From positions 151,229,501-151,293,500 of the forward strand of contig JAZBRS010000026.1 in NCBI GenBank assembly GCA_037176725.1: a DNA stretch of 64,000 bases. The letters are read 5' to 3'. The notes below the pieces were generated by a model. That model saw only the letters and a program-made list of their open reading frames with translations. It had not been told where the DNA came from and made no database searches. The stretch is from Posidonia oceanica. Its lineage: Eukaryota; Streptophyta; Magnoliopsida; Alismatales; Posidoniaceae. This document shows positions 9,429 through 44,857 of this stretch, one piece after another; positions within the stretch are counted from its first letter, which is position 1, and the number at the start of each line of letters is the position of its first letter. Both the position numbers and the translations under genes were made by a program.

Positions 9429-12400
9429 TGTAGCGATCCCGATCGGAACCAGGCTCGCTATTTAGCGGCGATTGAGATCCGAGGAAGAGGCTCAACTCGA
9501 AAAACACTTAAAATCGAGGAGAAAAAGGAAAGATAAGACAAATCAGAGTCGCCACCACGTCTATTAACGGAAGACGAGGAAAACCGGGGTAATGCGTGAA
9601 TTAACGCGCAAAACCGAGCAATAAATGCAAAGCAAAGCAATGCAAAGGAAACAAATGCAAACAAATGCAAATGAGATGACTCTAGCCTAGGATAAGGGCG
9701 GTACGGTCATTGCGGGCCAAAAGACAGGGTAAGGACTCCTGTTACGTGCGGGGAAGGTATTAGGCACCCCCGACACGCCCGAAAATCGGTCTTTCTAGGC
9801 TTACGCTCGCATACGCAGAAAGATGCAGGATTGAATGCCTATGTGCCTATGAATGCCTAAATGAATGCTTAAGGAGTGCTCTAAGTGGGAAGAAACGATG
9901 CAAGGAAGTAAACGTGCTCTCTAAGTGCTCAGCTGCGCTGTCTGCGTTCCGAACCAGGCGTAACCTAGCTCGTGAGAACTCCAGGCAGTAAGCATCACAG
10001 CCCTACATGCAAATGCAAGCGAGAAAACAAAACAGCGCGAAAACCATGCAATGGGATCGACATGCAAGAGAAAACGGCGCGAAACACGCAAAACGAGGCG
10101 GGAAGCGAACAACGCACGCAAAACGATGCAAAAGAGCGAAATCGCCACACGAAACGAGCGGAAAACAAAGCAGCGTGCAAAACAAGATAAGAGAGCAAGA
10201 AGGTACGCAAAACAGGACGAGAAAAGAGAATGGTACGCAAAACGGGCGAAAGAATAAAACCGGCACGCAAAACGAACGAGAAGGCAAGACAGTGCGCAAA
10301 ACGAGACAAGAAAACAGATGGGCACGCAAAACGGAGCGAAAACGAGGGCGGGCACGCGAAACGGTGCCAAAACAGCGAAGCAAAAACCTCGAAAAAGCCA
10401 TGCAAATGCGAGGATGCAGAAAGAGATTAAAAGGGGTCGAAGGGGAGGCAAGACAACGCGTGTATAAGAACAAACGCTGTTAAGGACCACTCAGAGTAGG
10501 TGTGAAGACCTACTGAGGGGAGAAGGGGCAAATGGAGGGATTACCACCTCTTTGCGACTGTTTCCCACTAAACCGTTCCACGGTGTGTCTCGCATGCTGC
10601 CCAAAGCTCGCGATGCGATCGGATCGTGGAAAAAGGGGAAGAAAGTCACATAAAGTGGCAAATCCAAGGAGAACGCAACACGAAGCACACAGAGAAACGC
10701 GAAACGAGGATTTGAATAGACAAGCAGAAAGGGGAAGTCCTATTTTACATGCTCAAAGAGACAGAAAGCGAAAACAGGGAAAACTGTGCAAATGCCATGC
10801 AAATGAATGCAATGCAGGGGTTCAGGAGGACATACCAGGAAATCCGGGAACCTGATCTGAAATCTGTCTAGTCTATGCTGAAGAGCGCTTCGCTGCGGTC
10901 GCTTGGGCAGCTCACTTGAGAAGATCCAACGGCCGGATTGGAAGATATCGCAGCTCCAAGGCAGAAGGGCCAGAACAGGGGAGAAGAACAGATCTAAGTG
11001 TTCAGGAGGTCCTAGGGATGTGCAAAAGGGGCCTCCCAAGTGAAAGGGAGCTAGAAGTGCTTAGTGTGTGCAAGAAGATGCTAAAATGCAAGACTAAATG
11101 AGTGCAGGATGCATGCAAAAGCAAGAAAAGCAAAGAGAAGTAATTTGAGAAAAACCAGGAGTTCAGAAAGCATTTTGAAAAAGAAGAGGGGCTAAAAGTG
11201 CAAATTTCCCAGAGAACAGGGTCCCAGGGAGGATTTTGAAAACAGGGGAAGGCAAGGGTCTATTTGGCAAAAAACTGGGCTCAGAAAGGTGTTTTGAAAA
11301 GAAGGTATGCTTTGAAAGAGATTTTGAAACCAAAAGGGGTCAGAGTGCAATTTTGAAAAAATCTAGGGTCTAAGATGCAAATTTTCCAGAAAACAAGGTC
11401 CTGGGGAGTCTAGGGGTACTAATGGAAGGTCTGTATGAAATTTGGTAGGCATAGGGGCTAAAATGCAACCTAGGGGCAAAATGGTCTTTTCACATGATTT
11501 TTAAAGCATGCAGGGACCTAAGTGTGGTTTTGCAATCATGCAGGGGTTGAAAATGCAATTTAGTATGGAAAGCATGCTCTGAAAATTAAATGACAGGACC
11601 ACAGTGCAATTTCTGGAAAATATGGGGTTAAAAATGCAATGCAGTAAGTTAAAATGCATGCAGCACAGTTACTGTCCATTTAAAATGGACCTAACTGCAA
11701 ATATGATAAAGTAGAGGGGCAAATATGCAATGCAGTATGCAAAATAAGGAAATAAACCCTAAGTTACTATAATGCATGGACTAAGATGCAAAAACAGTAA
11801 AATATAGGGGTCCAGAATGCAATACTACATGGTAAAATAAATGCATTTAAGTTAAATGGTCTACTGCAGGACCAGAATGCAATAATGGAAAATACAGGGG
11901 CTAAAACACAAATATTTATAACTGAACAGCACAGTAAACGGACTGGATTGCAAATACAGAAAAGCAGAAACATTTAGAGCAATTTAGCATGATTTTAAAT
12001 CAAAAACATAGCAGATTAAATGAAATAAGGATTGAAACGCAAAAATAAGGAAACTTAGGACAGACATGCAATATTTACCCTAAAACTATATAAACTGAAA
12101 AATAAGTAAACAGTGTTGATCGTCGACGGCGACGAACACTGTAGCACGAAGCTTCCAGAGTTCGTGCCGTCGACAGGGGAGGCTGAGGATGCGCGGGAAG
12201 GCGGAGAGCAACGTCGGCGGTTGTCCGGAGCTCCGGGGGTCGACTGGAACTCGCTCTGCTGGTCGGAATGTCCGGAGGAAAAGCAGCCGGCACCGGAGAA
12301 GGAGGACTGTCCGGCGAGCTGAAGACGGAGCAGGAGGTCCGGAAAGCCTATTCTAAAGGCTGGGGAAGCAAGAGAAGAAGGAGAGGAAGCTAGGGGAAGC

Positions 12401-15255
12401 AGTGATTACCTCTTCCCGCGCCTGAGTCGTCCCCCCGACGTCAGTGACTTCAGCTGTCGCCGGTGGAGGCCGCCTGGTTGCTGCAGACGTTGCCGGCTGC
12501 TCGCGGAGGTTGGAATCACTTCGAAACGTCCCTCCGGTGCTTCCTGATCAACCGGACCGAAGTTCTGCAGCTCAGGTAACGTTTTGGCTTTTCTGGTTTC
12601 AGCGGATGCTGCCGGAGGTCGAGGGAGGTGTCCGCTGCTCGTCGGCTTGGATGGAGCGTTCTGGGAGATTGCTGGGGGTGCGGGGAGTGGTTCTGGGTGG
12701 TTGAATTGTTTTTTGGGAGGCTGTAGGTGGAGATTGGAAGGCGGCTGGTTTTCTGATCAGTGAGTGGCGTAAGTGTTTGTGGTGGAGTTTGGAAGCTGTG
12801 GTGAGCGGTTGGGTTCGAGGCCGGGGGCTTTAGAAAGGTGGAGGCCTGGTGAGTGACTGGGTGAAGTTTGGGGGAGAGTTGCGGGCTAGAGTGATGGGAA
12901 TTGTGAGAGAATGGAGCTGGGTTGCAGGTCTGGTGATCAGGGTGTCTCTGGGTGGTTTTAGGTGGTTTCAGTGGGTGGAATGGCCGGAGAATGAGGCTGG
13001 GAAATGGCTGGGTTTTGGGTGAACTTGGGGGAGCAACGGGGAGAAGTGTGGAGGCTTGGAGTGGTATTGGGGGATTGGAAAAGAAAGAAGGATGCTTTGC
13101 TGATATTTTCAGAGAAGAAAAGAAGAGGACTGGATGGGGGGATCGGGCTCTGATGAGGGCTTCTCTCCGGGATGCCCAGAACTCACAAACACTCTCTTTT
13201 CACTCCGGAATTGGAAGAGGATCAGGGGAGAAGGAAGATCGCACAGAAAGGAAGGAAAATTCGGATTTTGGTCTCTGGTTTGCTGGTGGTCTCTCGTTGC
13301 TTGCTTGCTCACTGACGGTTTTTCTGATGATCCTCTCGATGAAGGAAAGGATGGGAGGCTTATATCTGGGGAGGGGAGGCTGCTGGCGCGCTGGGAGTTT
13401 TTGAAATCCACCGGCGGCCACTACAGCAGAGAAGACCGGTGTCGTCCGACTCCGGAAAAACCGCTGAGACGAGGAAGAGGCGGCGAGCTGCTGTAGATTG
13501 ACACGATGGAGGACTCAAATTCGAATGGAGGAGGGAATCCTGTTGCTGCAGCTTCGCGGGAGAATCGGCCGGAGAAAAAAAACGCAGAGGAAGATTGAGG
13601 AAGAAGAAGAAGGGTGGGGAAGGCCGGACTGTGGGCCGAGAAAAAAACGAAGAAATAAAAGAAAAAGGAAACGGGCTGGATTGAGCCCAGTAAAGAAAAG
13701 AAAGAATAAAAAAGAAAAGTAAGAGAGAAGGAGAGGGTAGAATGGGGAAATAAGATAGGTAAAAATAAACTAAAAATAAATAAAAATATTAGAAGAGTTG
13801 TGCTGTAGATTAGGATTTTAATTAAGATTTTTAATGGTTATTTTGAGTTGATTAATGTGTTTTGGGCTTGATTAGGGTTTTAGGGCTTTGGTTTTGTTCT
13901 TAATTGGTTTTTACTTGATTAAATGTTTGTTAAACCTTTTTTAAATTGTTTTAAAAATTGTATTTCCCTTGTTGGACACTTAGGATATTAATTAGGATTT
14001 TTCAGGATTTATTTCGTATTATTTTAGGGCTGGTTTTAGATTTTAAAGTTGTAGTCTTCTTAGGGTTTTTCTTTCTTAAGTCTTTTAAGTTATGTCTTGA
14101 TTTTTTATTTAAGGATTTTTCTTGAAGTTTTTAGTTGGATTTTTTTGGTTTGATAGGGTGTTTTTGAGCTTTTCAGATGTGTTTTCTTTTCTTTTTTTTT
14201 TAATTAAGTTTTTACTTGTTTTTCTTATGTTCGTTAGGTTAAGTCTTTTGCCTTTCTTAATTACTTGTTCTAGTATTTGATTTTTTAATTCTTCTTTTTG
14301 GGTTTGTTTTTTAATTCCTCTGATGGGTTTTTACCTTTGGTGGTTCTTGATTTTATTTTAGCTTTTTCTTTGATTTTTCAGTGTTTTCTTTTGATTTGTT
14401 TTGCACTTTTTAGTTTGCATGCTTGGTTTTCTTTTTAGCTTGCTTAAGTTAAGTTTAAGTTGTTAATTACTTGTTTAACATTTTTTAATTGTTTTTCTTA
14501 GTGCACTGATTTGTTTGTTTTATGTTTTGAGATTTTACAGATTTTTATGGGTTTTTGTGGATTTTTGCAAAAGGGAGAAAAGGAGAAGAGAAGGAGGGAA
14601 GAAATGGAATAAAAAGGGGAATAAAAGGGGAAAAGATAGGTTGGGGGAAAATGATTTTTTTAAAATTCAGAAAGAGTGTTAAAAATAAAGTAAAAATCAG
14701 GATAAAATAGAGGAGGGATAGAAGCACAGAGGGGGCCCACAGCCAGACCCAAAAAAGGATGAGAAGGGGGGAAAAAGGGAGATGATAATCAAGAGAGAGA
14801 GAGGAGAGAGAAAATGATAATCCCGGAGAGAGAAAAGGATAATTTGAGTGAAAGAGGGTCTTAATGGTCTCGGAATGGGGTGAAAATTGGTGGGTGGGTA
14901 GTCTAGGTTTTGAAGTCTTGGGTCTGAAATTTTGGTTTGATTTTAAGGAGGTTTTGGAGGAGTTTCAAGGTGTAGAAAAAGGATAGTTTCACCTAAGTTT
15001 TCTAGGGTTTTTGGGAATGGGTCAGGCTTGGAAAATCCTAGGTTTTTGGGTAGGTTTGTTGAGTGGATAGTGGTGGGTTTTCCTATGAATTTTGGTTAGG
15101 TTTTGAGGTTGGGAAGGGGGGTAGAGGTTTAGGCCAAGACAGGCTGTTTTTGAAGGGTTGAGAGGAGGACTAGGGTTAGGGTTTGGTTGGGGTTTGATCC
15201 AGCAATCAAGCAGAGGGCTCTAAGGGTCTAGGCCTGTCAAGATGGGGTGTCAACA
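9429..15255 (-). repeat. Element 2 3' LTR (type A, 5827 bp)
   Basis: On the minus strand it starts TGTTGACACCCCATC and ends GGGATCGCTACA. It is nearly identical to 31283-37121. Differences seen by eye include positions near 10063, 10150, 10177, 10185, 13203, 13419, 13471, 13523, 14287, 14656, 14787 and 14871, plus absence of a 12-bp duplication near 13195. It contains the U5 block shared by all LTRs of the window at 9726-9800 and the PBS-like motif at about 9545-9557. Confidence 0.97.
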
Positions 15256-15322: not shown

Positions 15323-15824
15323 TGACCGGCGGGAGCAGCGGGTTGCTATGGGCATGAGCTACTTATTCGGCGGATGCACCGAAGATCATAGCCCGTTGCC
15401 GCAATGCAAGATGCCAGTGCAGATGGATGCTGTGCTGTGTGTGATATGCTAAATGCGATGCAAGAGTTAGTATAAAAGTTAGTGCAGCTGTAAGAAAATG
15501 CTGATGCTGTGCAAGTGATACTGATGATGCTAAAATGACATGCAGTGCTAGCTAAGAAAGTGCAGAGATGGTGCAAGAAAATGGTAAAAAGGCGCGATGT
15601 GGTGCGAATGTCTGGCAGGGAGGGCAGACTTGCACGACAAAGCGAAGGAAAACAGGGTGCAGCTGGTCCCCGCCCGGGGAGCAAGCTAGCAGGAAAGAAG
15701 GGCGCGAGGGGAGAGAGGCCAACTCTCCCATCGCAGAAAGGGGGTGCGTGATCTCGTCTTCCTGGGACAAGGTCACGCCGAAAAGGAGAAAAAAAACGAT
15801 AAGGTGACGGGCTTATCGTCCGGA
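15323..15824 (-). other. Element 2 spacer between polypurine hairpin and inverted-repeat array
   Basis: About 500 bp without a recognisable gene. GC content is mixed. Short ORFs here show no family features. Confidence 0.5.
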
Positions 15825-16850
15825 TAGTTTACGGTCCTATCAACCGGGAGCGACAGTTTACGGTCCTGTCAACCGGAGCAGTTGTGAGTGATAGTTACTG
15901 GATATCAGCCGTATAACATGGTTGTGGGTGATAGTTTAGGAGTATCAGCCTAACGACAGTTTACGGTCCTGTCAACCGGTGGATAGTTTACAGACCTATC
16001 AACTGGAGGATAGTTTACAGACCTATCAACTGGAACCCACAAACCATGAGTGATAGTTACTGGATATCAGCCGTATAACGCAATGCCGGATAGTTTACAG
16101 TCTATCATCTGGAACGACAGTTTACGGTCCTGTCAACCGGCGGATAGTTTACAGTCCTATCAACTGGTGGATAGTTTACAGTCCTATCAACTGGAAACAG
16201 CATTGCGAGGGACAGTTACTGGATGTCAGCCGTATAACATCATTGCGCGTGGTAGTTTACAGTCCTACCAACTGGTGGATAGTTTACAGACCTATCAACT
16301 GGAGCGACAGTTTACGGTCCTGCCAACCGGTGGATAGTTTACAGACCTATCAACTGGAAACACGCAATGATGAGGGATAGTTACTGGATATCAGCCGTAT
16401 AATGCAATTGCGGGTGATAGTTTAGGAGTATCAGCCTAACGACAGTTTACGGTCCTGTCTACCGGTGGATAGTTTACAGACCTATCAACTGGAGGATAGT
16501 TTACAGTCCTATCAACTGGAAACCGCAATTGCAAGGGACAGTTACTGGATGTCAGCCATATAACGTAATTGCACGCGGTAGTTTACAGTCCTACCAACTG
16601 GAGCGACAGTTTACGGTCCTGTCAACAGGCGGATAGTTTACAGACCTATCAACTGGAAAAGTGCAATTACGAGGGACAGTTACTGGATGTCAGCCGTATA
16701 ACACAACTGCGGGCCAACCATGGATCGGCCAGAAGATAGTTTAGGTTATCAGCCTGAGAGTGATTGATTGTTGATAGTTTCGGATATCAGCCTAGCACGA
16801 GTTTGATAGATTGATAGTTTCGGATATCAGCCTAGCACGAGTGATTGATT
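15825..16850 (-). repeat. Multi-branch inverted-repeat array with covarying stems
   Basis: More than 25 copies of a 19-bp module are present in which the ends are complementary: GATAG-TTTACAGAC-CTATC, GACAG-TTTACGGTC-CTGTC, GGTAG-TTTACAGTC-CTACC, and shorter GATA/TATC or GACA/TGTC versions. The modules sit in five blocks, each closed by its own outer stem: 15917-15929 with 16035-16048; 16080-16086 with 16200-16206; 16238-16250 with 16360-16372; 16404-16415 with 16521-16532; 16565-16574 with 16661-16670. The outer stems differ between blocks but remain complementary within each. Blocks are joined by a linker hairpin, GATAGTTACTGGATATC or its GACA/TGTC form, followed by AGCCGTATAAC. The array is non-coding and lies in the element 2 3' untranslated region. 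Confidence 0.92.
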
Positions 16851-16859
16851 GATTGATAA

Positions 16860-17780
16860 GAGGGGGCAAGATCATGATGAGAATGATAAGATATCGGACT
16901 TATCGGCCGGCAAAGAGGGGATGAGGTAATGATGAGAAATTAATCTAAAGAGGGGATGAGATCATGATGAGAAATTAAGCTAAAGAGGGGGGTGAGATCA
17001 TGATGAGAAATTAATCTAAAGAGGGGATGAGATCATGATGAGAAATTAATCTAAAGAGGGAGATGAGATCATGATGAGAAATTAAGCTAAAGAGGGGGGG
17101 GAGATCATGATGAGAAATTAATCTAAAGAGGGGATGAGATCATGATGAGAGATTAAGCTAAAGAGGGGACGAGATCATGATGAGAGATTAAGCTAAAGAG
17201 GGGACGAGATCATGATGAGAGATTAAGCTAAAGAGGGGACGAGATCATGATGAGAAATTAAGCTAAAGAGGGGGGTGAGATCATGATGAGAAATTAATCT
17301 AAAGAGGGGATGAGATCATGATGAGAAATTAAGCTAAAGAGGGGATGAGATCATGATGAGAAATTAATCTAAAAGAGGGGGGTGAGATCATGATGAGAAA
17401 TTAAGCTAAAGAGGGGGGTGAGATCATGATGAGAAATTAATCTAAAGAGGGGATGAGATCATGATGAGAAATTAAGCTAAAGAGGGGATGAGATCATGAT
17501 GAGAAATTAATCTAAAGAGGGGACGAGATCATGATGAGAAATTAAGCTAAAGAGGGGATGAGATCATGATGAGAAATTAATCTAAAGAGGGGGGTGAGAT
17601 CATGATAAGAATGATAAGATATCGGACTTATCGGCCAGCAAAGAAGGGGTAAGGGAATGATGAGAATGATAAGATATCGGACTTATCGGCCGGCAAAGAA
17701 GGGGTAAGGGAATGATGAGAATGATAAGATATCGGACTTATCGACCGGCAAAGAAGGGGTAAGGGAATGATGAGAAGAAA
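16860..17780 (-). repeat. 35-bp minisatellite of element 2 with flanking GATAAG hairpins
   Basis: About 20 copies of a 34-36 bp unit with core GAGATCATGATGAGAAATTA run from about 16925 to 17605. Forms ending ATCT and AGCT tend to alternate. Each contains the palindrome ATCATGAT. The array is bordered by units with GATAAG-ATATCGGA-CTTATC hairpins at about 16884, 17605, 17668 and 17729. 3' minisatellites are a known feature of Ogre-like elements. Confidence 0.92.
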
Positions 17781-17784
17781 CCAT

Positions 17785-17811: not shown

Positions 17812-17852
17812 GAAAGGGGGAGAGAATGATACCGTGGGGCGATCAAAAGATG

Positions 17853-18470: not shown

Positions 18471-19673
18471 CTAGTCAACCCGGGCCTTCTTCGGCTGCCT
18501 GGAGTCGGGGAACAAGGGGCCGCTTGGTGGGACTTCAGTGATTGGCCAGAGCTGTCGGACTTCCGCTTCATAATCAGAAGTGCAGCCAGTACCTCTCACG
18601 GCTGCAACGTCTGTAGATTGGACCCCATGCTGCATCAGACTAGCAAGCTTCTTGGTTGGGGCAGTGGTGCTGAGAGGATAAGTCTGTAGAAGCTCGGGCG
18701 CTGTACTGTCGATGAAGGCGCCCTGCTGGAAGCCGAACTGGCGCATGACCCTGATTGGATGGTACTCTACGCCTGCTGTGAAGCCTGGAAGAATGATCAG
18801 CCGCGTGTCACGCGCGCTGAAGAAGATTGTGAATGGCTCTGCTGCAGAGGGAATGATGCGCCAGATCACAGCGTCGTCAGTCAATGCTGACAGCCTCTCG
18901 TATTCGTCTTTGACGCTCTTGTCTGTTCTGGTACAGGCGCTACTGCAGTAGGCTTCGAAGGCGTGCACTTGAGGGCGCAGGAAGTCCATTTCTAAGTGCG
19001 CGATCAGCCAGACTTGTATAAGTGCTCCGCAACCGTGGAAGTGGCGGCAGCGATGAGAAATGCGGTCCAGCCCGCGATAAGTCTCTGCCAAGACAACTGG
19101 TGCCAGGTCTATATGCTGGGTCACCACAGCTAGCGCAATCTCTGCAACCTCGATGGCTACTGTCAGTCGGCCATGAGTAAAGATTAGTTCGCCCAGAAAG
19201 CGGATGACGAATCCTCGGAGCCACAGCTCATCTCCGAGGTCAGCACGCTTGTTCAAGATATCATCAAAGTGTGCAAGGCGAAGCATAGGCTCTTGTCCAC
19301 TGGTGCAGATTAGCTTCTGTTGGCAGGCTTGAGTGGAGAGTCCAGTCAGTTGGTTCAGGACTCGGAGATATCCGTCGCGCCTCATGAAGACAGGCGGCCC
19401 CAAGATCTTTGAAAAGCCGCAGATCCGACGCACCTCTTCCAATGTAGGTGTCAGCTCAGTCTTGTTGAAGCGGAAGACATGATGCGCCGGCTTCCAGAAC
19501 CTCGCGGCGGCACACAGAAGGTGGCGGCTGACCTCCACATCAGCAGCCTTTAGCAGCTTAGTTGGTATGCCCCACAGGCGCAACTTTTCACAGTCTTGTA
19601 GAGTGAGCCTGCTGATCCATTCTCGCAGGGTTTCCGAGCAGTGTGCGGGAGTCAACAGAGTAGGAAAACCCAT
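18471..19673 (-). CDS. Plant mobile domain-like additional ORF of element 2 (400 aa)
   Basis: I recognise an aminotransferase-like plant mobile domain (PMD) pattern. There is an N-terminal helix-rich part, then FWKPAHHVFRF at about 59-69 and TLEEVRRICG at about 77-86, the usual W-x-x-x-x-x-x-F-x-F ... TLEDV signature. A later stretch has HCRHFHGCGALIQVWL. Domains of this kind are known as passengers in Tat/Ogre elements and MULE transposons; their role is unsettled. The Met at 19673 is chosen because element 1's copy begins at the equivalent residue (MDYPTLVTP there, MGFPTLLTP here). The open frame reaches upstream to 19808. The C-terminus is basic (PKKARVD). The frame is intact, unlike gag-pol. 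Strand and order place it after integrase, so it needs a subgenomic or spliced message; none is visible with certainty. Confidence 0.8.
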   Translation of the reverse strand: MGFPTLLTPAHCSETLREWISRLTLQDCEKLRLWGIPTKLLKAADVEVSRHLLCAAARFWKPAHHVFRFNKTELTPTLEEVRRICGFSKILGPPVFMRRDGYLRVLNQLTGLSTQACQQKLICTSGQEPMLRLAHFDDILNKRADLGDELWLRGFVIRFLGELIFTHGRLTVAIEVAEIALAVVTQHIDLAPVVLAETYRGLDRISHRCRHFHGCGALIQVWLIAHLEMDFLRPQVHAFEAYCSSACTRTDKSVKDEYERLSALTDDAVIWRIIPSAAEPFTIFFSARDTRLIILPGFTAGVEYHPIRVMRQFGFQQGAFIDSTAPELLQTYPLSTTAPTKKLASLMQHGVQSTDVAAVRGTGCTSDYEAEVRQLWPITEVPPSGPLFPDSRQPKKARVD

Positions 19674-21190
19674 TGCACTGGTTGCAGAAGACAGGCTGAT
19701 TGCTGCAAGGCTTGAGGTACCTGCTATCAATAAACAGTCAGATCTCGCAGGCATATAATCTTTGACGATAAGCAGAAGCTGAGATTGAAAGTGTAGCTCT
19801 ATATGCATTCAGCAGTTGATAACAGAACATAGCAATTAAGCACAAATAAACAAAGGGAATTGGCAGCAGTCCGGTGAATGCAGGGGCGAGGGCCGGCAGA
19901 TGATCTGGACCGGCACAGCTTGAGTGTCGTCGATGCGCTCTGCTGGGGAGGAGTACTGCCTCAGGGCCAAAGCGCGTTGCAGAGCGGGAGAGATTGATAG
20001 AAGAGGAAAGGAATGAAAGAAGATGCATGAGTGCAAGATGTTAGTGATATGCTTATGTGGATGAATATTATTGGATGGCTAAGTGTGTTTGAATGGATGG
20101 GTATGCTGGGGTGGATGCTTGAGTGCCCTCAGCGTACGGAGTGCTTTGGTGCCTGCTGCAAAGGAAGGGAGTGGTCCTTGACTCACTGGGCCCTACTTAG
20201 ACTCTCGGCTTATTGGTGGCGCTCCGGAACAGGTTGTTGGCATTATACAGGTGGTGATGTGGTGAGGACAGGCTACTGGCTGCATTCTCAGGACCTACAC
20301 CTATTCTTTCAGCTCTCTCTCTTTTTTTTGAAAGGTTTCTCCCTCATAGGTATGCAGTCTTTCTCTGCCCCTAGCTGGGAGAAGGTATGTGTTTGCTCTT
20401 GGGAGGATGTGGTAGACCCCCTTTTCAGGCTTGACATGCTGGGGATCTCTTAGTAAAGCATGGGGGATAACAGTGCCTGTGTTTTTGGGCTAGCTTTGCC
20501 TTTTTCTTCTTTCTTTTTTTTTTGCTTGCTTTTCTCCTTTTTTTTGTTTTTGTTTTTGTTGTATCTCTTTTTTTCTCTTTTTCTTTTTTTGCTTGATCTT
20601 TTTCCTCTTTTTTTCAGGCTTTTGCTATCCCCATTCTGGTGGCAAAAGAAGGGTGCTTGACATGTAATGGATTCAGGTTCTGGGTCTGCTGTGTGATGGG
20701 TAGAAGGAGCAGGGTTAGACTGCACACCCCTATCTCTAGGGCCGGCTTCTGTCTTCATCTTCTGTTCCTTGGGGGTGCCCAAACCTAGATGTCTATTCTC
20801 ACTTTTTTCAAGCTCACATCCTAACATTTTTTCTCCCTCAGAGGTGTATGTCCTTGTGAGGTTGGGCAGTTCGCCTGTCCTTATTGGTGGTGGCTCCCTC
20901 ACTTGCTAAGACATCTAAGTAGTGCCAGGTGAGGCAGGGTGACTCCTTCCAGAGCAGGCAAGCACTTCCGGTTGTCATCACCGGGCAGAAGATGCAATGC
21001 TTGAGAGAATGACGATGATGATTTGAATAGGGATGCAAGAGTTGAAAGGATGACGATGATGATTTGAAACAGAGAGTCGCAAGAGTTAAAAGAATGACGA
21101 TTATGATTTGAAAGGAGATGAAGCAAGAAGGCGAGAATGAAAATGCAAGTGTAGGTGGGAGAAGGGCATCTGCAACGGGGCCGCTTTCGG
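19674..21190 (-). other. Element 2 spacer between integrase and PMD ORF
   Basis: No gene is recognised. It includes a pyrimidine-rich tract on the plus strand at 20500-20620 and dinucleotide-rich ATGACGATGATGATTTGAA repeats near 21005-21115. Its homologue in element 1 is split between 8333-9428 and 37122-37537. Confidence 0.65.
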
Positions 21191-22861
21191 CTACTGATAG
21201 TACTTCTTCAGATAGCAGAGGTTGACGGGCTCAGACTGCTCGACCTGGTCCATATCTTCAAGGGTTACAGCGCCTCCCGAAAAGATCTGCTTGACCACAA
21301 AGGGGCCATGCCAATTGGGTCGGAATTTCCCTCGACCGTCCGGCAAGTGAATGGCGCGCAAGACAAGGTCCCCTAGCTGGAAGCTTTTGGGCTGGACCTT
21401 CTTCAAGAATGCTCTGGCCATCCGCTTCTGATAGCAGTGAGCGTTGTGCATGGCTTGCAATCTGCGCTCATCAATCAAGTTCAGTTGGACGCAGCGGTCT
21501 TCGACCCATTCTGCTTCTTCCAACTCAGCTTCCCGCAGGATCCCCAGAGAGGGGATCTCCACTTCAACAGGTAACACCGCTTCCATGCCGTACACCAGAG
21601 AGTACGGGGTGGCTCCTGTAGAGGTCCGAATTGATGTCCTGTACGCCCAGAGCGCGTACGGGAGCTTGTCGTGCCAATCCTTGTGGATTTCTGCCATTTT
21701 CTTCAGAATCTTGACAATGTTCTTGTTTGCAGACTCCACTGCTCCGTTCATCTGAGGCCGATAAGGCGAGGATCGATGGTGCTTGATTCTGAGACCTTGC
21801 AGGTATTCTTCGATCCTTTTGGCAATGAAGTTTGAGCCGTTATCAGAGATGACAGAGTACGGGACCCCATATCGGGCAACAATATTGTTTCTGATAAATT
21901 TTTCTGTTGCCGAAGCGGTGACTGTTCTGTAAGAGGCTGCTTCCACCCACTTGGTAAAGTAATCGATCGCTACCAGAATGTAACGATGACCATTTGAAGC
22001 AGCAGGGTGGATGGCGCCAATGACATCGATCCCCCAGGTGGAGAAAGGCCATGGCGAAGACATGTTGTGCAGCTGATGTGGAGGGGCCTTGATGAAGTTA
22101 CCATGAATCTGACAGTTGTGGCATCTACGCACGAACCGGCAGCAGTCGGCTTCCATGGTCTGCCAGAAATAACCTTGCAGCATGATCTTCTTGGCTAGGA
22201 GAACGCCGTTCATGTGCGGGCCACAGGTCCCCGCATGCACTTGAAGCATCAGCGTGTCAGCCTCTGATTTGTTCAGGCAGCGTAGTAGCATCTGATTGTA
22301 TGACCTTCTGTACAGCTGCCCGGCCCCTAACACATACTTTGACGCCAGACGCGCCAAAGTTCTCTTGTCTGCTGCCGTGGTATCAGGAGGAAAGTTACCA
22401 GACTCCAGGAAAGATTTTATGTCTTGATACCAGGGCTGCCCCTCTGCGGGATCCGCTTCTTCTATGCTCATGCAGTATGCAGGCTGTTCAATGCGAGTGA
22501 CTGATACATCCACACTGCTGTCTTCAGAAATGGTGAGCCAGGATGCCAGAGTTGCTAGTGCGTCTGCATACGCGTTCTTTGCTCTATTCAGGTATGTGAA
22601 GCGGATGCTCTTGAATTCTTTCATCAACCTCAGCAGGTGTTCGTGATACGGCACAAGCTTGGGATCTTTTGTCTTCCATTCGCCGTTCACTTGAGAAATT
22701 ACCAGCATGGCATCGCCGTGCACATGCAGCTTCTGCGCCTCATGCTCGAGGGCGACTTTCAACCCCAGGATGCATGCTTCGTACTCTGCTTCGTTGTTTG
22801 TGCAGGTGAAAGTCAGCTTCCTCGCGAAAGGAGTCATCTGTCCTTGGGGCGTGGTCAGCAC
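21191..22861 (-). CDS. Archaeal-type RNase H and integrase of element 2 (556 aa open frame)
   Basis: The second RNase H is readable with NNEAEYEA at about 22-29, HGDAMLVISQ at 48-57 and NAYADALA at 96-103. Its first catalytic Asp (LYFDGAV) lies just upstream of the first Met, between the TAG at 22910-22912 and 22861. Integrase follows: H2C2 finger His209, His216, Cys247, Cys250, then the catalytic triad Asp279, Asp340, Glu376 with D35E spacing. The tail has GDLVLRAIHLPDGRGKF and GPFVVK, typical of the C-terminal SH3-like fold. The frame ends CYLKKYYQ. In the intact ancestor this would be the C-terminal part of one polyprotein. Here it is cut off from RT by a stop and a frameshift, so independent translation is doubtful. 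Confidence 0.93.
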   Translation of the reverse strand: MLTTPQGQMTPFARKLTFTCTNNEAEYEACILGLKVALEHEAQKLHVHGDAMLVISQVNGEWKTKDPKLVPYHEHLLRLMKEFKSIRFTYLNRAKNAYADALATLASWLTISEDSSVDVSVTRIEQPAYCMSIEEADPAEGQPWYQDIKSFLESGNFPPDTTAADKRTLARLASKYVLGAGQLYRRSYNQMLLRCLNKSEADTLMLQVHAGTCGPHMNGVLLAKKIMLQGYFWQTMEADCCRFVRRCHNCQIHGNFIKAPPHQLHNMSSPWPFSTWGIDVIGAIHPAASNGHRYILVAIDYFTKWVEAASYRTVTASATEKFIRNNIVARYGVPYSVISDNGSNFIAKRIEEYLQGLRIKHHRSSPYRPQMNGAVESANKNIVKILKKMAEIHKDWHDKLPYALWAYRTSIRTSTGATPYSLVYGMEAVLPVEVEIPSLGILREAELEEAEWVEDRCVQLNLIDERRLQAMHNAHCYQKRMARAFLKKVQPKSFQLGDLVLRAIHLPDGRGKFRPNWHGPFVVKQIFSGGAVTLEDMDQVEQSEPVNLCYLKKYYQ

Positions 22862-23036
22862 TGCGCCTACGCCTCGGCCCTTTTTGTTGACTGCACCATC
22901 AAAGTAGAGCTACCGTTCCTCTGCTTCTTCAGGATTTTTCTGCTCAGAGCCCTCCATTGCAAAGAGAATGTCTTCATCAGGGAACTGCGTCTGGAGGGGT
23001 TGGTATTCAGGCAGAGGGAGGTCAGCAAGATGGTCG
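22862..23036 (-). pseudogene. Broken junction between RNase H and second RNase H
   Basis: After the 1-nt deletion near 23036 the correct frame reads GDHLADLPLPEYQ, FPDEDILF and EEAEER. It then meets TAG at 22910-22912, just before LYFDGAVNKKGRG. Element 1 has a Gln codon at this place, so CAG to TAG is likely. Confidence 0.8.
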
Positions 23037-26000
23037 CCATTGCTTGACCCTTCATGGATTTCTGTGTGACGAAGGTGATGTCGTACTGAGACAATAACAC
23101 CTGCCACTTGGCACACCTGCCCACCATGGCCGGCTTCTGGAAGAGGAATTTGATAGGATCATGCCGGCATAAGAGCTGCACTGGGTATGCCATCATGTAG
23201 TGTCTCAGCTTCTGTGTAGCCCAGACAAGTGACAAGCAAGTCTTCTCTAGTGTTGTGTACCTGGCTTCGCATTCATTAAATTTCTTGCTCAGGTAGTAGA
23301 TGGCGCGCTCCTTCCTACCAGATTCGTCATGTTGGCCCAGGACGGCGCCCATGGAATGCTGCGTGGTAGAAAGGTAGAGAAGTAAAGGTCTCCCCGGCGT
23401 AGGCGAGACCAGGACAGGAGGCTTGATCAACAGCTGCTTGATCTTGGCAAATGCAGCCTGACACTCCTCGCTCCAGTGAATCTGCGCATTCTTCCTCAAG
23501 AGCTTGAAAATAGGTTCGCAGATGGGCGTAAGCTGTGCAATGAAGCGACTGATATATTGTAAATGCCCAAGCAGACTTCTGACTTCTTTTTCAGTTCTAG
23601 GGGGTGGCATGTCCATGATGGCTTGTGCTTTCAACGGGTCCACCTCAATCCCCCTTTGGCTAACAATGTAGCCGAGCAATTTGCCAGAAGACACCCCGAA
23701 TACGCACTTCTTGGGATTCAGGCGCAGCTTGTACTTCCGTAGACGGTCAAAGAGCTTTCTGAGACAGGCAAGATGATCCTCGGGCTCTTTGGTTTTGGCG
23801 ATCATATCGTCTACATAGACCTCCACTTCTTGGTGCATGAGGTCGTGGAATAGCGCAGTCATGGCCCTCTGATAGGTTGCACCAGCATTTTTTAGGCCGA
23901 ACGGCATGACTTGGTAGCAGAAGACTCCCCAAGGGGTGATGAATGAAGTCTTTTCCATGTCCTCTTCTGCCATTTTGATCTGATTGTATCCAGAAAAGCC
24001 GTCCATAAAGGAGAGCATTTTGTGACCCGCTGTATTGTCGACTAGGACGTCAATGTGGGGCAATGGAAAGTCGTCCTTGGGACTCGCCTTGTTAAGGTCC
24101 CTATAGTCGATACAGATCCGGATTCGACCATCTTTCTTGGGCACAGGTACAATGTTTGCCAGCCACTCAGGATAAAGAACGACCTTCAGAAAGTTGACTC
24201 CAAGCTGCTTCATTATCTCTTCTTTGATCATGAGCAGCCACTGCGGTCGCCATCTTCTCAATTTCTGCTTTACTGGCTTGGCATCCGGATTTAAGGGCAG
24301 ATTGTGCACCACTATCTCTATGTCAAGGCCGACCATATCTTCATAACTCCAGGCGAAGACATCCGCATATTCTTTCAGGAATGCGATGAATTCTGCTTGA
24401 GCCTGGGTGGACAGCTGGGCACTGATGCAAACTTCTCTGACTTCCTCAGCTGTGCCGATGTTGACAACCTCCGTTTCTTCTTCGACATGGAGGTTGGGGC
24501 CTTCTGGGTCGTCGTCATAGGGCCGGAACTCGGGCAAAGGTTCGTCAGTCTCATCTATGCCCGTATCATCCTCTTCTCCATAAGCAACAAGTTCTGAGAG
24601 GATCTCTTTCTCGAAAGAAGGACTTGCAATGCTGAAAGAGTGTATGTGTTCTGCTGCTTGGCCCTGGTGACGCTTCAGGATGGTCACGCTTACTCGAGTA
24701 TTCTTGTAGCCTCGGTGCGCGACCTCCGTCCCAGCAACTCCTTCTGCTGTTTGCTCTGGCCTGACTGGCTCTGCTGAGTGCTCTGCTGATTCCGCTGAGG
24801 GCTCAACTGACTCTGCTGCTGATGTTGCTGACTGCTCTGCTGCTGAGGCTGCTGACTGCTCTGCTGCTGAGGCATTCTGCTCTGTTACTGTTGCATTTAC
24901 TGCTGATGCTCTCCCCTCTGGGTCTTCTAGTGTGCTTGTGGAGGATACGCCAGACTGGCGGCTGATCTGGTTACTGCCGCTCGGTATATTGTTCAGGTGA
25001 GGCATGGGTTGCACAAACCAACTAGACCCGCCTTCTGGTTGAAGAGTGATGAGCTCATCTGGTCTAGGGGAGTCCGGCACTGCTGAGTCTTCTAGGACCA
25101 TGATAGAAGCATGGTCCTCTTGCAGAGGAGGATCCGTAACTACGGCTTTTCCTTTCCTTTCTGCAGCTTGATGGTCTGCCAGGTCTTCTGCTATTGACTG
25201 GAGTTGTTCTTGATAAAGCAACTCTAAGTCGGACATCCAAGAATCGACCTGGGCTTCTATCGCCACTCCTTCTTCTTCGTCTGAGGGGGAGTCGACGTAG
25301 TAGGCGCCGGGGGCCTGCGGCACTGGCCCGGCTGCAAGATGGATCGCCGCCCTTGGGGTCTGCATGATCTGGTTCACGGGCGCGTCCGCTGATGGCAGTT
25401 CAGAAGTAGATGGCCCAAATAGACAAGCTAGCGGTGCTACCGATGGATAAGCTTCCAGGGTCACTGCTGGAGAATAAGCAGGGGTGCTCCTCAGAGGGCT
25501 CAAGGGCCCGGAGAGTGTAGTGCTCAGTTGGCCTTTTGTATCAGGCCGTAACTGAGAGAGTGCAGCCTCTGACGCCATGGGGTCTTGCCATGAGAGCTGC
25601 TGCTGGTTGTCAGGAGAATGCGAAGCGGACTGCGCCAGCTGCATTCCTGAAGATGATGCTGAGGGAGCGGGCTGAGCCGCGCTGCTGACTGAGCTGATAG
25701 ATGGTCCCTCCAGAGATGGGGACAGTGACACTGATGTGGTTGTGACCGCTGGTAGCATGCTTGGTTCTGCCAAGAGGAGTGTCTCTGACTCCTGCACTGC
25801 TGCTGACTGTTCTTGAGAAGCTGGTGTGGCTGGAAAAGGATGAGAACTTGCTTTTGCCACAGGGCCTGCTGAACTGCCTGCTGTTTCTGCCAGAGGGAGA
25901 GCTGAATAAACTGACTGTGGGGCCTCTGCTCTGACCACTGTTTCTGCTGAACTGATTGGGACTGCCTCTGTTGCATCAGACTGCTCCTCATCCGAGTAGT

Positions 26001-26574
26001 AGTCCTCAACACACACCCAATCCTCTGTCGGTGCTGCGGCTTGGTAGTCAGTTGATCCCAGAATTCCTGCACTGGTAAAGTTAGTGAGGTCTCTGGGAAT
26101 GGCTGGTGCACGATCCTTGAGCTGGAAGCAGTGATCTTCGTCGAGCCTTGGTTCGTAGCCGAGACCTTCAGACTTCCTTCGCTCCACTGCTATGATCGGC
26201 TCCGCGATCCCTTGGCCGTGACGCCCGAGTGGCGTACCCTTTGTGTAACCCCATCTGTGACATACATTCTCGACCATTCGAAAGGGGTTACTGTGAACGG
26301 CCAAAGAGTTGACACGTTCAAGATCAGGAATGAAGTTAACTGGCTCGCACCGGTTAACGCGATAGAGGGCTTCAGAAGTCTCAGGGTCAAATGGGATAGA
26401 TTGCGAAGACACGGGAGAGACTGCTTCGATCCGCTCCTTCTCAAAGTTCTCCGCCATGACGACAATGACATCATCACCACGACGGTACTTTATCATTCGA
26501 TGGAGGGTCGAAGGAAGGACCTGATGCTTGTGGAGCCAAGGGCGCCCAAGCAGAAGATTGAAGTTAGGCTTCAA
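22867..26574 (-). CDS. Element 2 pro end, G-patch-like motif, linker, RT and gypsy RNase H (1235 aa open frame)
   Basis: The frame opens within protease (LLLGRPWLHKHQ at about 7-18). It continues through a glycine-rich motif, RWGYTKGTPLGRHGQGI ... GLGYEP (about 107-142), like the G-patch known in Tat proteins. A Ser/Ala/Pro/Glu-rich linker spans about 190-660. RT runs from about 755 to 990 with YPEWLANIVPVPKKDG, CIDYRDLNKA, FMDGFSGYNQI and YVDD at 920-923. The RNase H (about 1060-1178) has LYLSTTQHSMGAVL where a catalytic Asp is expected, so it is probably inactive, as reported for clades that gained a second RNase H. The last 55 residues are out of frame: a 1-nt deletion near 23036 in GCAATGG-GACC shifts it. 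The start Met is only the first in this frame, since translation should enter from gag-pro. Confidence 0.92.
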   Translation of the reverse strand: MKPNFNLLLGRPWLHKHQVLPSTLHRMIKYRRGDDVIVVMAENFEKERIEAVSPVSSQSIPFDPETSEALYRVNRCEPVNFIPDLERVNSLAVHSNPFRMVENVCHRWGYTKGTPLGRHGQGIAEPIIAVERRKSEGLGYEPRLDEDHCFQLKDRAPAIPRDLTNFTSAGILGSTDYQAAAPTEDWVCVEDYYSDEEQSDATEAVPISSAETVVRAEAPQSVYSALPLAETAGSSAGPVAKASSHPFPATPASQEQSAAVQESETLLLAEPSMLPAVTTTSVSLSPSLEGPSISSVSSAAQPAPSASSSGMQLAQSASHSPDNQQQLSWQDPMASEAALSQLRPDTKGQLSTTLSGPLSPLRSTPAYSPAVTLEAYPSVAPLACLFGPSTSELPSADAPVNQIMQTPRAAIHLAAGPVPQAPGAYYVDSPSDEEEGVAIEAQVDSWMSDLELLYQEQLQSIAEDLADHQAAERKGKAVVTDPPLQEDHASIMVLEDSAVPDSPRPDELITLQPEGGSSWFVQPMPHLNNIPSGSNQISRQSGVSSTSTLEDPEGRASAVNATVTEQNASAAEQSAASAAEQSATSAAESVEPSAESAEHSAEPVRPEQTAEGVAGTEVAHRGYKNTRVSVTILKRHQGQAAEHIHSFSIASPSFEKEILSELVAYGEEDDTGIDETDEPLPEFRPYDDDPEGPNLHVEEETEVVNIGTAEEVREVCISAQLSTQAQAEFIAFLKEYADVFAWSYEDMVGLDIEIVVHNLPLNPDAKPVKQKLRRWRPQWLLMIKEEIMKQLGVNFLKVVLYPEWLANIVPVPKKDGRIRICIDYRDLNKASPKDDFPLPHIDVLVDNTAGHKMLSFMDGFSGYNQIKMAEEDMEKTSFITPWGVFCYQVMPFGLKNAGATYQRAMTALFHDLMHQEVEVYVDDMIAKTKEPEDHLACLRKLFDRLRKYKLRLNPKKCVFGVSSGKLLGYIVSQRGIEVDPLKAQAIMDMPPPRTEKEVRSLLGHLQYISRFIAQLTPICEPIFKLLRKNAQIHWSEECQAAFAKIKQLLIKPPVLVSPTPGRPLLLYLSTTQHSMGAVLGQHDESGRKERAIYYLSKKFNECEARYTTLEKTCLSLVWATQKLRHYMMAYPVQLLCRHDPIKFLFQKPAMVGRCAKWQVLLSQYDITFVTQKSMKGQAMATILLTSLCLNTNPSRRSSLMKTFSLQWRALSRKILKKQRNGSSTLMVQSTKRAEA

Positions 26575-26591
26575 GTCGACGACATAGAATT

Positions 26592-29500
26592 CTACGTCGA
26601 AGATGACCGGACCGATAGCCAGAGGATAATCAGAATCCCTAGAGCGTCATGGTGGGTGTTGTCAAAAGCAGTCATTCCCTTCACGGCTGGCGTGATATCC
26701 TCGGCTTTGAATCCGAGCTTGGTTGCTGTACGCAAGGGGCAGACGTTAAGGCCTGACCCGTTATCAACCAGTGTTAGGGGAATGCAGAAGTTTTTGAACT
26801 GCACCGTGACGAATAGGGGCTGGTTGTGATTAATCCCCGCCGGAGGCAGTTCATCACTCGTGAAAGAGATGACCTGGGGCTCCGCGATTAACCCAACCAT
26901 GCTCTCCAAGGCAGAAGGCTCAATGGACTGGGACACACGAGCAGCCTGGAACACACGAAGAAAAGCCTCGCGATGTTCGGCAGAAGTGTGGATCAAATCC
27001 CAGATGGAGATGTCAGCTTTAACCTTCTTAAGCTGGGAGGTTAGGTCTGCTCTAGGTTGGTCTCTCCTAGCAGCTGGAGGGGTGATTCTAGCAGGTTCTA
27101 CGGGGGTAGTGGTAGGAAGCTGGGTTACCATAGGCCGGCTAGGGGCTTGGCTAACTACAAGCTGATCTGGGGCTGGATTTGCTAAGGGTTGGCCTGAGGG
27201 TGGGGGTATAACAGGTCTAGGATGAGTTGGCCTAGTTGCCGGTGCTGGGGGCCTGTAAATCCTCCCCGATCGCGTTACTTCCGCGCACATTTCTGTGGCG
27301 TAGCTGTAAGGGACGCGATGGGTGTCCAAGGTCAAGTTAATGACGACTGGAGCATGTGCTGCGAGCACAGGAGGGGTTACAGGGGGACCTACAGGATACT
27401 GAGGTCTGTTTAAGGGATATGGTTGTTGGGGATGGAAGGCTGGGGCAGGTTGAGGTCTGCTTAGAAGGTGTATGGGAGAACTAGGCTGGGCTCTGGCTAA
27501 AAGGTGTACGGGAGATTGAGCCTGAGGGAGCACGGTGGGAGACGCGCGAGGGCGCTCCGGCCTGGCACGCGGTCGGATCAAATGGATTCCCGACTCGGAG
27601 CCGGCAACTGCCGCCAAATAGAGACTGACTGGGAAAGGCTCAGAGAGGTCAGAGATAAGATCAGAAGGGTCCACTACAGAGGTAGCGGGCCCAGAGGGAA
27701 AGACAGAGTAGACGCCTGAGGTTCCCGCCCTTCCCGGATGAGAGTGCTCCGGTAAAGGTTGGCGGACGATGCCAGAATGCGGGGGAACAGCTGGAGATGC
27801 AGATGCATGGGTGCGTGCTTGAGTGGAAGCCTCGTGCGTGTCGATCACAATCGTTCCCGATTCGATTAGGTCCTGAATTGCGTTCCGCAGGGAGAAGCAA
27901 TTGTCCGTCGAATGCCCGACGCTTCGATGGAAATTGCAGAAGAGGTCCGGCCTAAACCAATGCGGCAGAGGGCTTGGCGGCGGACGAACCTCCGGGAACT
28001 TCAGGAGCGATGCCACCTTTGGCAAGATGACCGTGAGTGGTTCCACCAGTGGGGTGAAATTCCGCCTCTCAGCGGGTGGTCTTCTTTGCCTTGGGTACGG
28101 GCCTTGCTGAACCGGTGCGGCAGGATAGACCGGTCTAGCGGTGGTTGTGATGTGCGGTGTGTGCGGGATCCTAGGTGCAGGAGCGTACACCATCTGAGCT
28201 GGGGCAGGCCGTGACGGCAAGCGAACAGGCACAGCAGGAGAATCGACGAATGCAACAGCGGGTTTCGGCGAGTCCTTCCTCTTCGGGCGGTTGTTGTTGC
28301 TGCCGCTGTTGTTGTTGTTGGAGGTGCTGCTGTTGGCACTGTTGCTGCTTATCACTGCCTGCTTAGCGAACGCAGAGAGAGCTGGGAAGTTGCCACTCCG
28401 CAAAGAACTCTCCACGCGCGCTCCAGCTCTGATGAGTGCCGCAAAAGTAGTGACTGGTTGAATGCTAAGCAAAGCTCCGAGAGACGGCTGCGCCCCTTTG
28501 ATAACGATCTCGATAGATTCCTCGTCAGAGGGTCTATCCCAAACCTGAGAGGCAAGGGCGCGCCAGCGGCCGACGTACTCCCCGAACGGCTCGCCAGAGT
28601 TCTGCTTGATGGCGATCAAGTCCGCCCTCTTTGGGACAAGATCGAGGTTGAAGGAGTATTGTTCCAGGAACGCCTGACTGAGGTCGTTCCAAGTCTTGAT
28701 GGCTGACATATCGAGTGATGTGAACCACTTGAGCGCCGGCCCGGTCAAACTCTTCTGGAACAAGCGGATCAGCAACCTCTCGTCAGCCTGAAGCTGAGCG
28801 AGATCACCGCAATACGCCTTCAAGTGTGCTACAGGGCAGCCCCTACCATTATACTTCTCGAAGTCCGGGATTTTGAACTTCGGAGGGAGCACCGCCTCTG
28901 GAAAGCAACAGAGGTCCCGGAACTGGTAGGTCTGGTGCTCAGTACCCTGCACTAGTCGTAGTGCTTTCTCCAAGACGTCCATCCGGTTATTGATGGGGTC
29001 TGGGATTGCTGCTGTAGGAGAGGGATCAGCAGGGGTAGCGAGCACATACGCCGAATGGGTCGCACCTAAGTGCTCCTCCGGATCTACCATAGCGTCGCCT
29101 AGTGGAGCAACGGGATGGCCGGCGTATCCGTGCTGGGGGATAGTGTATGCAGGAGTGTATGCAGGATGCTGGACTTGAGGGAGAGGAGAAGAATAAATGC
29201 CATGGTGTGCTGGGACAGGGGTAGGATGGCGGAGCACCAGTTGCTGTGCAGGCGGGGTGCCAGACAGCGAGCCAGTGAGGTACTGGGCTCCAGCCGATCC
29301 GAAGGGTTGACCACCAGAAGGAAGTGGAGCATGCTGTGCCAAGTGTTGTGCAGGAGGAGGCGGTAAACGAGCCCCCATCGTCGGAACTGTGAGCAGTTGC
29401 GACGATGGTCGAGGCGGAGGTGCAGAGGTCGATGCAAGGAATGCAGGAACTGGCCTCGGAGGAACCTCAGGGACGACAGAGACAGAAGAAGGACGAACTG

Positions 29501-29951: not shown

Positions 29952-31262
29952 TGCTGACCTAGAGCGTGTGAGAACTGGGCTGCGACGGGTATTCAAGCGA
30001 TGCTTCCTAAGAAGAGCTATCGTCGCAAGTGCGGATAGCTCGGAAGGGGAATGGTCGCGAACTAAGTCACAAAAGGGGGTCAACGAGGGTCGGTACTCAA
30101 GCTCTGGCAAAGGGAACTTGCTTACCGATCACGCTGACACAACAGAAGGAAATTAGGGTTAGAAACTAGAGGATGAATGCAAATGAGTTAGTTAAGTGGC
30201 GTGAATGATATGCATGCTTTCTAGTATGCCCCCCTCACCTAACTAGTGTGTCCTAGTAAGGTTGTCTACTCCGGGTATCCCTGGATGTACGGGTCACCGA
30301 CTCAGGTCAGAAAAAGTAGGTCCCCTGTCTAACTCCCGGCCCAAAGCTCAGGTAATGACAGGGTGGTGCGTTAGTGGCCTCTACCCCGCCAAAGCGTGGG
30401 TGGTACCCTCTACTAACACCGACACGACCCCCGGACAAGGAGGGGACGGACCGACCAACTTATGCCACGCCCAAAGCAGTGGAACAAGAGGCCGGAATCG
30501 TCCTTCGCAGACTAGTAGGTGGACTCAGAGGAGAAGAATGCATGCCCTATATGATGCTTATGCAAATGATTAGAGTTTTTTATCTTGCACATTTTATTAA
30601 CCAAAAAGGGAGTGAAGGATTGTTTGCAGTCTCTAGTTGCCCCTAGAAGTTCTTTTTACTTGCATTTTTTAGTTAACCATGGGGGAAGCAGACAAGTCTC
30701 TACTATCCTAAGCATGGCAAGTGAGAAAGGGAAGAAAATCAGTCAAAATGGCAAGCAACCATCATACAACACAACAAAAGGCATGTTCATGGCATGTGCG
30801 AGTGTTTGTGAATATGATGGTGAAAAAGAAGCATTCATCAAGTCAAAAGGCACGTACGCATAGTATGTGCGTGTGTAGTGGCATAGCAAGAGTGTAAAAG
30901 AAGCATCCAACATCCAAAAAGCATGTATTTTAGCCAAACAAAGTATGTAGACATGCAATGTGCAAGAATTAAAGCAATAATAAGCAAGTAAGGCAAAACA
31001 AGGTAAAAGTAAGCAGACTGTAAAAGAAATAAGAGTATAAGCAAGACAATAAGTAAATAAACAAGCAAACAAGCGAGGCCAGGTAAAAGAAAGCGCAAAC
31101 CGAGGCGAAAGAGGTGCAAAACCCAAGCAAAGTAGCCACGAAGCGACTTGCTAGGGGTTTGCACAGAAGGGCGAGCAAAACAAGCAAGAAAGGCACACAA
31201 GGTAGACAAAATTACAAAACAAGCGAGCGAAAAGCCGAGAACGAAAGCCGGAGTCTAGTCTA
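29952..31262 (-). other. Element 2 leader (5' untranslated region)
   Basis: About 1.3 kb lies between the PBS and the gag ATG. No second gene is seen. On the minus strand a splice-acceptor-like TTTCCTTCTGTTGTGTCAG ends at 30134, followed after about 8 nt by a donor-like GGTAAGC (30120-30126). Confidence 0.55.
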
Positions 31263-44856: not shown

Positions 44857-44857
44857 G

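Follow-up and report, generated by a model that had tools for sequence, protein, structure and literature searches.

Hypervariable tandem repeats are known from the 3' untranslated region (3'UTR) of Ogre/Tat retrotransposons, where they lie between the last open reading frame (ORF) and the 3' LTR and vary between families (PMC7004042; PMC6317226). Family-specific repeats have also been described at this site, between pol and the 3' LTR, in the related lineage of Retand elements (PMC11963269). The array described here was found in the same kind of element and at the same site. However, the Ogre 3'UTR repeats are treated as seeds of satellite DNA by PMC7004042, whereas the present array is read as a structured domain. 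The main text of PMC7004042 uses neither the term hairpin nor the term secondary structure, and that of PMC11963269 uses none of the terms secondary structure, hairpin and pseudoknot. Among the literature matches listed, Macas et al. (2009) aside, paired or covarying structure in Ogre/Tat 3'UTR arrays is not described in the portions of the sources available.

The array lies between the coding region of its element and the 3' LTR. This is also the position of the transport elements CTE and RTE. The IAP RTE and the musD MTE of mouse are each one compact element, whereas the array groups about 25 similar units into blocks closed by stems. Tobacco mosaic virus has an upstream pseudoknot domain which is made up of few units and is not known to have block-closing stems. 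In other respects the array resembles these systems. The two mouse elements are structured RNA transport elements acting in cis within LTR elements, the MTE with a pseudoknot (PMC12786077), and the array would be a structured RNA of the same general kind. The tobacco mosaic virus domain, like the array as read here, has pseudoknots in a row within the 3'UTR of a plant RNA (PMC4683447).

Host element of the array

The window, meaning the whole stretch of 64,000 nucleotides analysed, was found by self-BLAST and Pfam searches to hold nested plant LTR retrotransposons. The array is carried by element 2, which is inserted within element 1 in the opposite orientation (9429-37121 within 113-41176), element 1 being a plus-strand relative. 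More related repeats were seen by self-BLAST at 41155-47930. Element 2 is a young insertion with LTRs of 5.8 kb that end in TG...CA and share 99.6% identity over a self-BLAST alignment of 5,840 columns, and it is flanked on both sides by the 5-bp target-site duplication (TSD) AAATC.

The gene order of element 2 is gag, followed by G-patch, reverse transcriptase (RT), RNase H, a second RNase H and integrase, and then by an ORF with a plant mobile domain; the array occupies the 3' non-coding region that separates this ORF from the 3' LTR. A second RNase H ahead of the integrase is a mark of the Ogre/Tat lineage. Element 2 has this arrangement of gag/pol domains, very long LTRs, a TSD in the range of 4-5 bp, tandem arrays in non-coding regions and a plant mobile domain ORF, a domain reported in 57% of Ogre elements (PMC6317226). 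As judged from its domains, LTRs, TSD and arrays, it is assigned to the Ogre/Tat type of LTR retrotransposon. The family is very abundant in the host genome, with approximately 179,000 sites for the linker sequence described below in 2.96 Gb.

A protein-coding role for the array was considered and rejected, as the longest stop-free run between 15797 and 16860 is 48 residues in the sense frames (107 on the antisense, or plus, strand). Rfam covariance models gave no matches to 15200-18000 up to E = 1. Relatives were not detected in viral contigs with two DNA patterns and the RNase H/integrase ORF as queries.

Organization of the array

A first-pass annotation of this region had reported modules with the arm pairs GATAG/CTATC, GACAG/CTGTC and GGTAG/CTACC around a loop of the form TTTACnGnC, grouped in five blocks with an outer stem unique to each. 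All of the sequences quoted in it are present where it placed them. The modules are real, with 19 main modules (nine of them distinct) that align and whose two arms vary together, and so are the five outer stems, including a residual mismatch in block 3 which becomes a G-U pair on the minus strand. The array is larger than first described, having a sixth stem, linkers with a stem of their own, a second helix in each module and flanking units (Table 1).

Table 1. Positions within the window of element 2, its array and the neighbouring repeats.
Feature	Position	Strand	Details
Element 2	37121 to 9429	minus	LTR retrotransposon carrying the array
5' LTR of element 2	31283..37121	minus	Self-BLAST; ends and TSD read
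Retrotrans_gag ORF	26592..30128	minus	Pfam
pol ORFs	21191..26646	minus	G-patch, RT, RNase H, second RNase H (RVT_3), integrase; Pfam
Plant mobile domain (PMD) ORF	18471..19808	minus	Between pol and array; Pfam
55-bp repeats	17604..17776	minus	With GATAAG/CTTATC pseudoknot-like units (17604-17747)
35-bp minisatellite	16912..17611	minus	Adjoins array; no pseudoknot-like units in geometry scan
Three GAUA/UAUC units and one GATAAG/CTTATC unit	16733..16909 (16733-16860, 16885-16909)	minus	Between minisatellite and domain
GGCC...CCATGG...GGCC hairpin	16712..16730	minus	6-nt palindrome in loop; just outside closing stem
Whole branched domain	15878..16710	minus	Closed by GCAGTTGTG (15878-15886) with CACAACTGC (16702-16710), 9 bp
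Block 5	16564..16671	minus	Arms 16564-16574 / 16661-16671, 11 bp; 3 modules
Block 4	16403..16533	minus	Arms 16403-16413 / 16523-16533, 11 bp; 4 modules
Block 3	16238..16372	minus	Arms 16238-16250 / 16360-16372, 13 bp, one G-U; 4 modules
Block 2	16079..16207	minus	Arms 16079-16088 / 16198-16207, 10 bp, one G-U; 4 modules
Block 1	15917..16048	minus	Arms 15917-15929 / 16035-16048, 13 bp and one bulge; 4 modules
Linkers 1-6	15890..15916, 16052-16078, 16211-16237, 16376-16402, 16537-16563, 16675-16701	minus	27 nt each
Three pseudoknot-like units	15797..15876 (15797-15822, 15823-15847, 15852-15876)	minus	3' LTR side; geometry scan
3' LTR of element 2	9429..15255	minus	Self-BLAST; ends and TSD read

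The domain comprises five blocks, six linkers of 27 nt, five block-closing stems and a sixth stem which closes the whole. Along the sense (minus) strand linkers and blocks alternate, starting with linker 6 and block 5 and descending in number to block 1 and linker 1. The linkers are nearly constant in sequence and have their own covarying stem (GATA/TATC vs. GACA/TGTC), with a tentative and weak assignment of a further helix, linker S1 (UACGG with CC-A-GUA). One of the modules of block 2, at 16089-16112, carries a 1-nt deletion.

When read to the first mismatch, and across the bulge in block 1, the closing stems of the window consist of standard pairs on the sense strand at 67 of 67 positions. 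The pairing of each arm with its own partner ranks first of the 720 permutations of six left and six right arms, the sixth stem included, with a single left arm (L6) scoring higher with the right arm of block 4 (24) than with its own partner (23). The arms of a stem are about 85-115 nt apart and share 18-73% identity between blocks, while the interiors which they enclose are 82-97% identical. Since the arms vary together while the interiors stay this similar, plain duplication is a poor fit.

Folding of the minus strand of the array, a check proposed in the first-pass annotation, gave z = -3.74 relative to 20 dinucleotide shuffles, and the antisense (plus) strand also folded better than its 20 shuffles (z = -3.19). 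Averaged over its pairs, each of the six closing stems has a pairing probability of 0.91-0.99 in the unconstrained ensemble of the window. The mean for the inner stem of the modules (S2) is only 0.20, in a model without pseudoknots.

The sense form of the main module, which is ~25 nt long, is C-CAGU-U-GAUAG-G-ACUG-UAAA-CUAUC. In addition to S2 it has a second helix (S1) which joins the start of the module to the loop and crosses S2 in the manner of an H-type pseudoknot. In the window S1 occurs as CAG/CUG and CGG/CCG, and S2 as GAUAG/CUAUC, GACAG/CUGUC and GGUAG/CUACC; a fourth S1 pair is not conserved. The two crossing helices are accompanied by a loop L1 of 1-2 nt and a loop L3 (UAAA) long enough to span S1. 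Over the nine distinct modules 96.3% of the cells are paired, compared with 24-49% in slid controls, and the module covariation score of 0.290 (0.156 in shuffles) was reached by none of 500 shuffles. Pairs changed on both sides number three in the window modules against 1.8 expected, a count reached by 84 of the 500 shuffles, and additional pair types are less numerous in these modules than in their shuffled versions.

A geometry scan of 15797-16713 returned 22 units on the sense strand vs. 2.5 ± 1.2 in 20 shuffles and 11 vs. 3.6 on the antisense strand (16 vs. 1.9 and 6 vs. 1.7, respectively, with a stricter threshold), counts whose significance is overstated because the repeat copies are not independent. 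The energy of a single pseudoknot, a rough value based on stacking values and a penalty, was estimated at -1.4 to -7.0 kcal/mol. In 12 of the 18 modules compared the best nested fold is the more stable of the two, and in six the pseudoknot is. One nucleotide cannot readily bridge five base pairs in a pseudoknot loop. The geometry would therefore suit the sense strand only, since the antisense strand would leave five pairs to be crossed by one nucleotide. The sequence suggests that the modules are better read as H-type pseudoknots than as plain hairpins.

With regard to the flanking units, S1 is weak or mismatched in two of the four found between the minisatellite and the domain. The two tandem arrays of the 3' region of element 2, namely the minisatellite and the structured domain, differ in kind.

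Stems in copies and subfamilies

The linker, with up to two mismatches, was found at 89,228 + 90,163 sites in the genome (9 + 14 for the control), and an exact match to arm R0 with the first linker at 12,842 + 12,861 sites (0 for the control). Twenty-six loci were sampled by linker and 20 by R0 with the first linker, all of them on contig C1 of the same plant genome. The sampled arrays of other subfamilies have the same plan with different arms, the arm pairs including CATAATTGC/GCAATTATG, CGCAAACCC/GGGTTTGCG, CGCAAATGCC/GGCATTTGCG and CATGATTG/CAATCATG.

Pairing of own arms was the best permutation in all six arrays judged complete (five ranking 1 of 720 and one 1 of 120, from about four subfamilies), these being six of 27 arrays, window included, after trimming of falsely called linkers beyond the closing arm. 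Within the R0 set, all five arrays with 5-6 linkers and every gap in the range 95-200 ranked first (L099, L103 and L118 of 720; L108 and L116 of 120). Four short arrays (L104, L107, L110, and L112) ranked 1 of 24, although in L107 and L112 a deletion, or linkers that were missed, causes a first left arm to be matched to a right arm from a different block. The other eight arrays, in which linkers were lost or false ones included, ranked second or lower, and three had a single linker and hence no rank. Ranks for arrays with decayed or false linkers, which extend from rank 1 to rank 5 of 6 (L076), are uninformative.

A set of 103 adjacent closing stems was obtained from 40 arrays (window included), with the spacing limit of 95-200 as the sole filter, so that falsely called linkers are included. 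Over the first seven positions these stems were found to have 91.5% Watson-Crick pairs, 1.4% G-U, 1.7% A-C and 5.4% other combinations, whereas partners taken from other blocks of the same array gave 53.3% Watson-Crick pairs. Ten unique, fully paired 7-bp stems show two or three Watson-Crick pair types at each of columns 1-7. There are 25 unique six-pair stem ends; all six of those seen in at least five arrays are fully paired, compared with four of the 19 others. The six common types differ in sequence (CGTAAT, TGCAAT, CATGGT, CGCAAA, CATAAT, and CATGAT). In nine diverged arrays, 50 of the 51 closing stems had a mean pairing probability of at least 0.80 (unconstrained, first six pairs), the exception being a stem of L118 at 0.27.

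The closing stems thus differ between blocks and subfamilies and yet stay complementary, which argues for selection on an RNA fold. The array is probably a structured RNA domain of the sense transcript of element 2, kept by selection on the RNA of source elements. Selection for a branched RNA fold had already been put forward in the first-pass annotation; the outer stems bear this out between subfamilies, but the sequence of the modules suggests pseudoknots rather than the hairpins drawn there.

The same annotation had named, as an alternative, a copying process by which inverted repeats are written without selection on RNA, such as fold-back priming or strand switching by reverse transcriptase. 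Ogre 3'UTR tandem arrays have indeed been ascribed to illegitimate recombination or abnormal strand transfer (PMC7004042). In addition, no excess of G-U over A-C on the sense strand was found in the copies, whether in the 43 aligned sequences described below, in the 103 stems (10 vs. 12) or in unique module windows (55 vs. 63 in S1, 35 vs. 57 in S2), and only the window's own closing stems lean to G-U (2 vs. 0 A-C). As a consequence of this lack of bias, the assignment of the fold to the sense strand rests on loop geometry and the orientation of the element. A copying process is nevertheless improbable, as the subfamilies examined have their arms at the same bounded site, with the linker on one side and the first module on the other, and as bulges are kept in the stems of several subfamilies: the bulged pair CATGGTT-G/CAAACCATG occurs in the window, L082, L087, L097, and L098, and the pairs CGCAAGTGCC/GGCCTTGCG and CGCAGATGCC/GGCACTGCG in L082 and L116. 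Fold-back copying would be expected to erase such bulges and not to halt at 9-13 bp.

Within the window's own subfamily the picture is one of decay. Its arm CATGGTTGTGGGT has 2,886 + 2,944 sites in the genome, vs. 5 + 13 for the reversed control, of which 48 were sampled, all on contigs C1 and C2. All six linkers are present in 29 of these 48 copies; the remaining copies show decayed linkers or lack modules or blocks. Linker spacing and arms show the loss of single modules in L008 and L037, the clean loss of blocks at linkers in L012, L040, and L048, and the joining of arms of different blocks in L005 and L019. The 42 sufficiently long copies were aligned with the window (43 sequences) and have a median divergence from it of 2.8%.

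Rare variant types, defined as those in fewer than 4 of the 43 sequences and counted per pair, number 85 (32 G-U, 32 A-C, 20 other mismatches, and one one-sided change to a standard pair), with no two-sided compensation among them; they are plain decay without strand bias. Rare changes per site amount to 0.30 in S1 and linker S1, 0.06 in S2 and 0.01 in L3, which is read as the decay of methylated cytosines. Paired and unpaired sites did not differ significantly as regards purifying selection over the 43 sequences (Fisher p = 0.16). Among 21 shared variant types, seven are two-sided and paired and, judged by their positions and partners, look like whole-module swaps. The six shared outer-stem variants comprise one G-U, one A-C and four that break a pair. 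There is no good case of fresh compensation inside this subfamily; clear compensatory change emerges only when subfamilies are compared.

The covariation could in principle be only apparent, with modules or blocks having been duplicated or swapped whole and both arms carried along. This outcome, named in the first-pass annotation as one that would speak against selection, applies in part to the window's subfamily, in which exchange of GATAG and GACAG modules would account for the shared two-sided changes, and in which copies differ by the gain and loss of entire modules or blocks. As a general explanation it is quite improbable. The closing arms bracket interiors which are nearly alike, and the first appearance of ten different fully paired stems needs change on both sides. 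Moreover, the states of S1 and S2 combine in four ways (CGG with GATAG or GACAG, CAG with GATAG or GGTAG), so that the two helices have changed independently.

Selection on the RNA fold is also consistent with the wider sample of modules. The five commonest forms of the main module (95 loci) all have a fully paired S2. A second module type has S1 as AGG/CCU or UGG/CCA, and in few copies as CGG/CCG or GGG/CCC, together with S2 as GAUA/UAUC or GAUGA/UCAUC and, in five copies, GGCA/UGCC. Of 342 four-pair windows of this type, 328 have S2 paired throughout, but two common forms are mismatched in S1 (UAGG/CCGA in 103 copies, UGGG/CCAA in 48). Compensatory change is thus seen in S2 and in the S1 core of the main module, alongside common S1-mismatched units and module swaps.

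That the fold matters as DNA, in cruciforms or in single-stranded cDNA during reverse transcription, would agree with mismatches free of strand bias and with both strands folding better than shuffles, but it is very improbable, given that arms of 9-13 bp set so far apart should make poor cruciforms and that the loop lengths of the modules appear compatible with a pseudoknot on the sense strand alone.

Possible function and the array of element 1

If the array acts as a structured RNA domain, the block-specific stems would keep its repeated modules from mispairing, and the need to avoid mispairing among similar modules would explain why each block has a stem sequence of its own. The ~25 units (19 in blocks and six linkers) could then be presented as a multivalent scaffold, and the domain may recruit an export factor or Gag to the full-length RNA. 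Medicago Ogre elements have introns, and LTR elements need splicing-dependent as well as splicing-independent export (PMC12786077). Such recruitment is suggested by the site of the array, after the last ORF and ahead of the 3' LTR, in a lineage where both spliced and unspliced RNA are exported by some of the elements.

By analogy, RNA export is tentatively placed first among the possible functions, with more doubt than confidence. Packaging or dimer formation comes next and is unlikely; the CCATGG-loop hairpin adjoining the closing stem looks like a retroviral dimer start site. This hairpin was identified at 31 of the 94 loci, many of the 94 ending short of its position. A role in translation or stability, and equally some other function, are each less likely again. 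Were the reading as an RNA domain correct, a supposed by-product of replication and seed of satellites would be a functional RNA present in tens of thousands of copies in one genome, and the purpose of Ogre 3'UTR arrays would become directly testable. It would also offer a case from nature in which stems specific to each block prevent repeated RNA modules from mispairing.

It is conceivable, with doubt slightly outweighing belief, that Ogre-type hypervariable 3'UTR repeats are in general very large modular RNA scaffolds, in which small pseudoknots or hairpins are set in blocks with mutually distinct stems that diversify under selection against mispairing, and on which elements unrelated in sequence, such as element 1, converge. 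Element 1 has its own 3' array at about 39280-40760, which gave no BLAST match of at least 150 bases to that of element 2. It too is made up of hairpins, whose arms covary (GCUUG/CAAGC, ACUUG/CAAGU, GUCUG/CAGAC, and GCUUA/UAAGC), and a hand tally of ~6 G-U against ~10 A-C gave no strand bias. For 21 unique arm pairs from 26 hairpins, the arms match their own partners with a score of 230, compared with 193.9 ± 7.2 in permutations, a value reached in none of 5,000.
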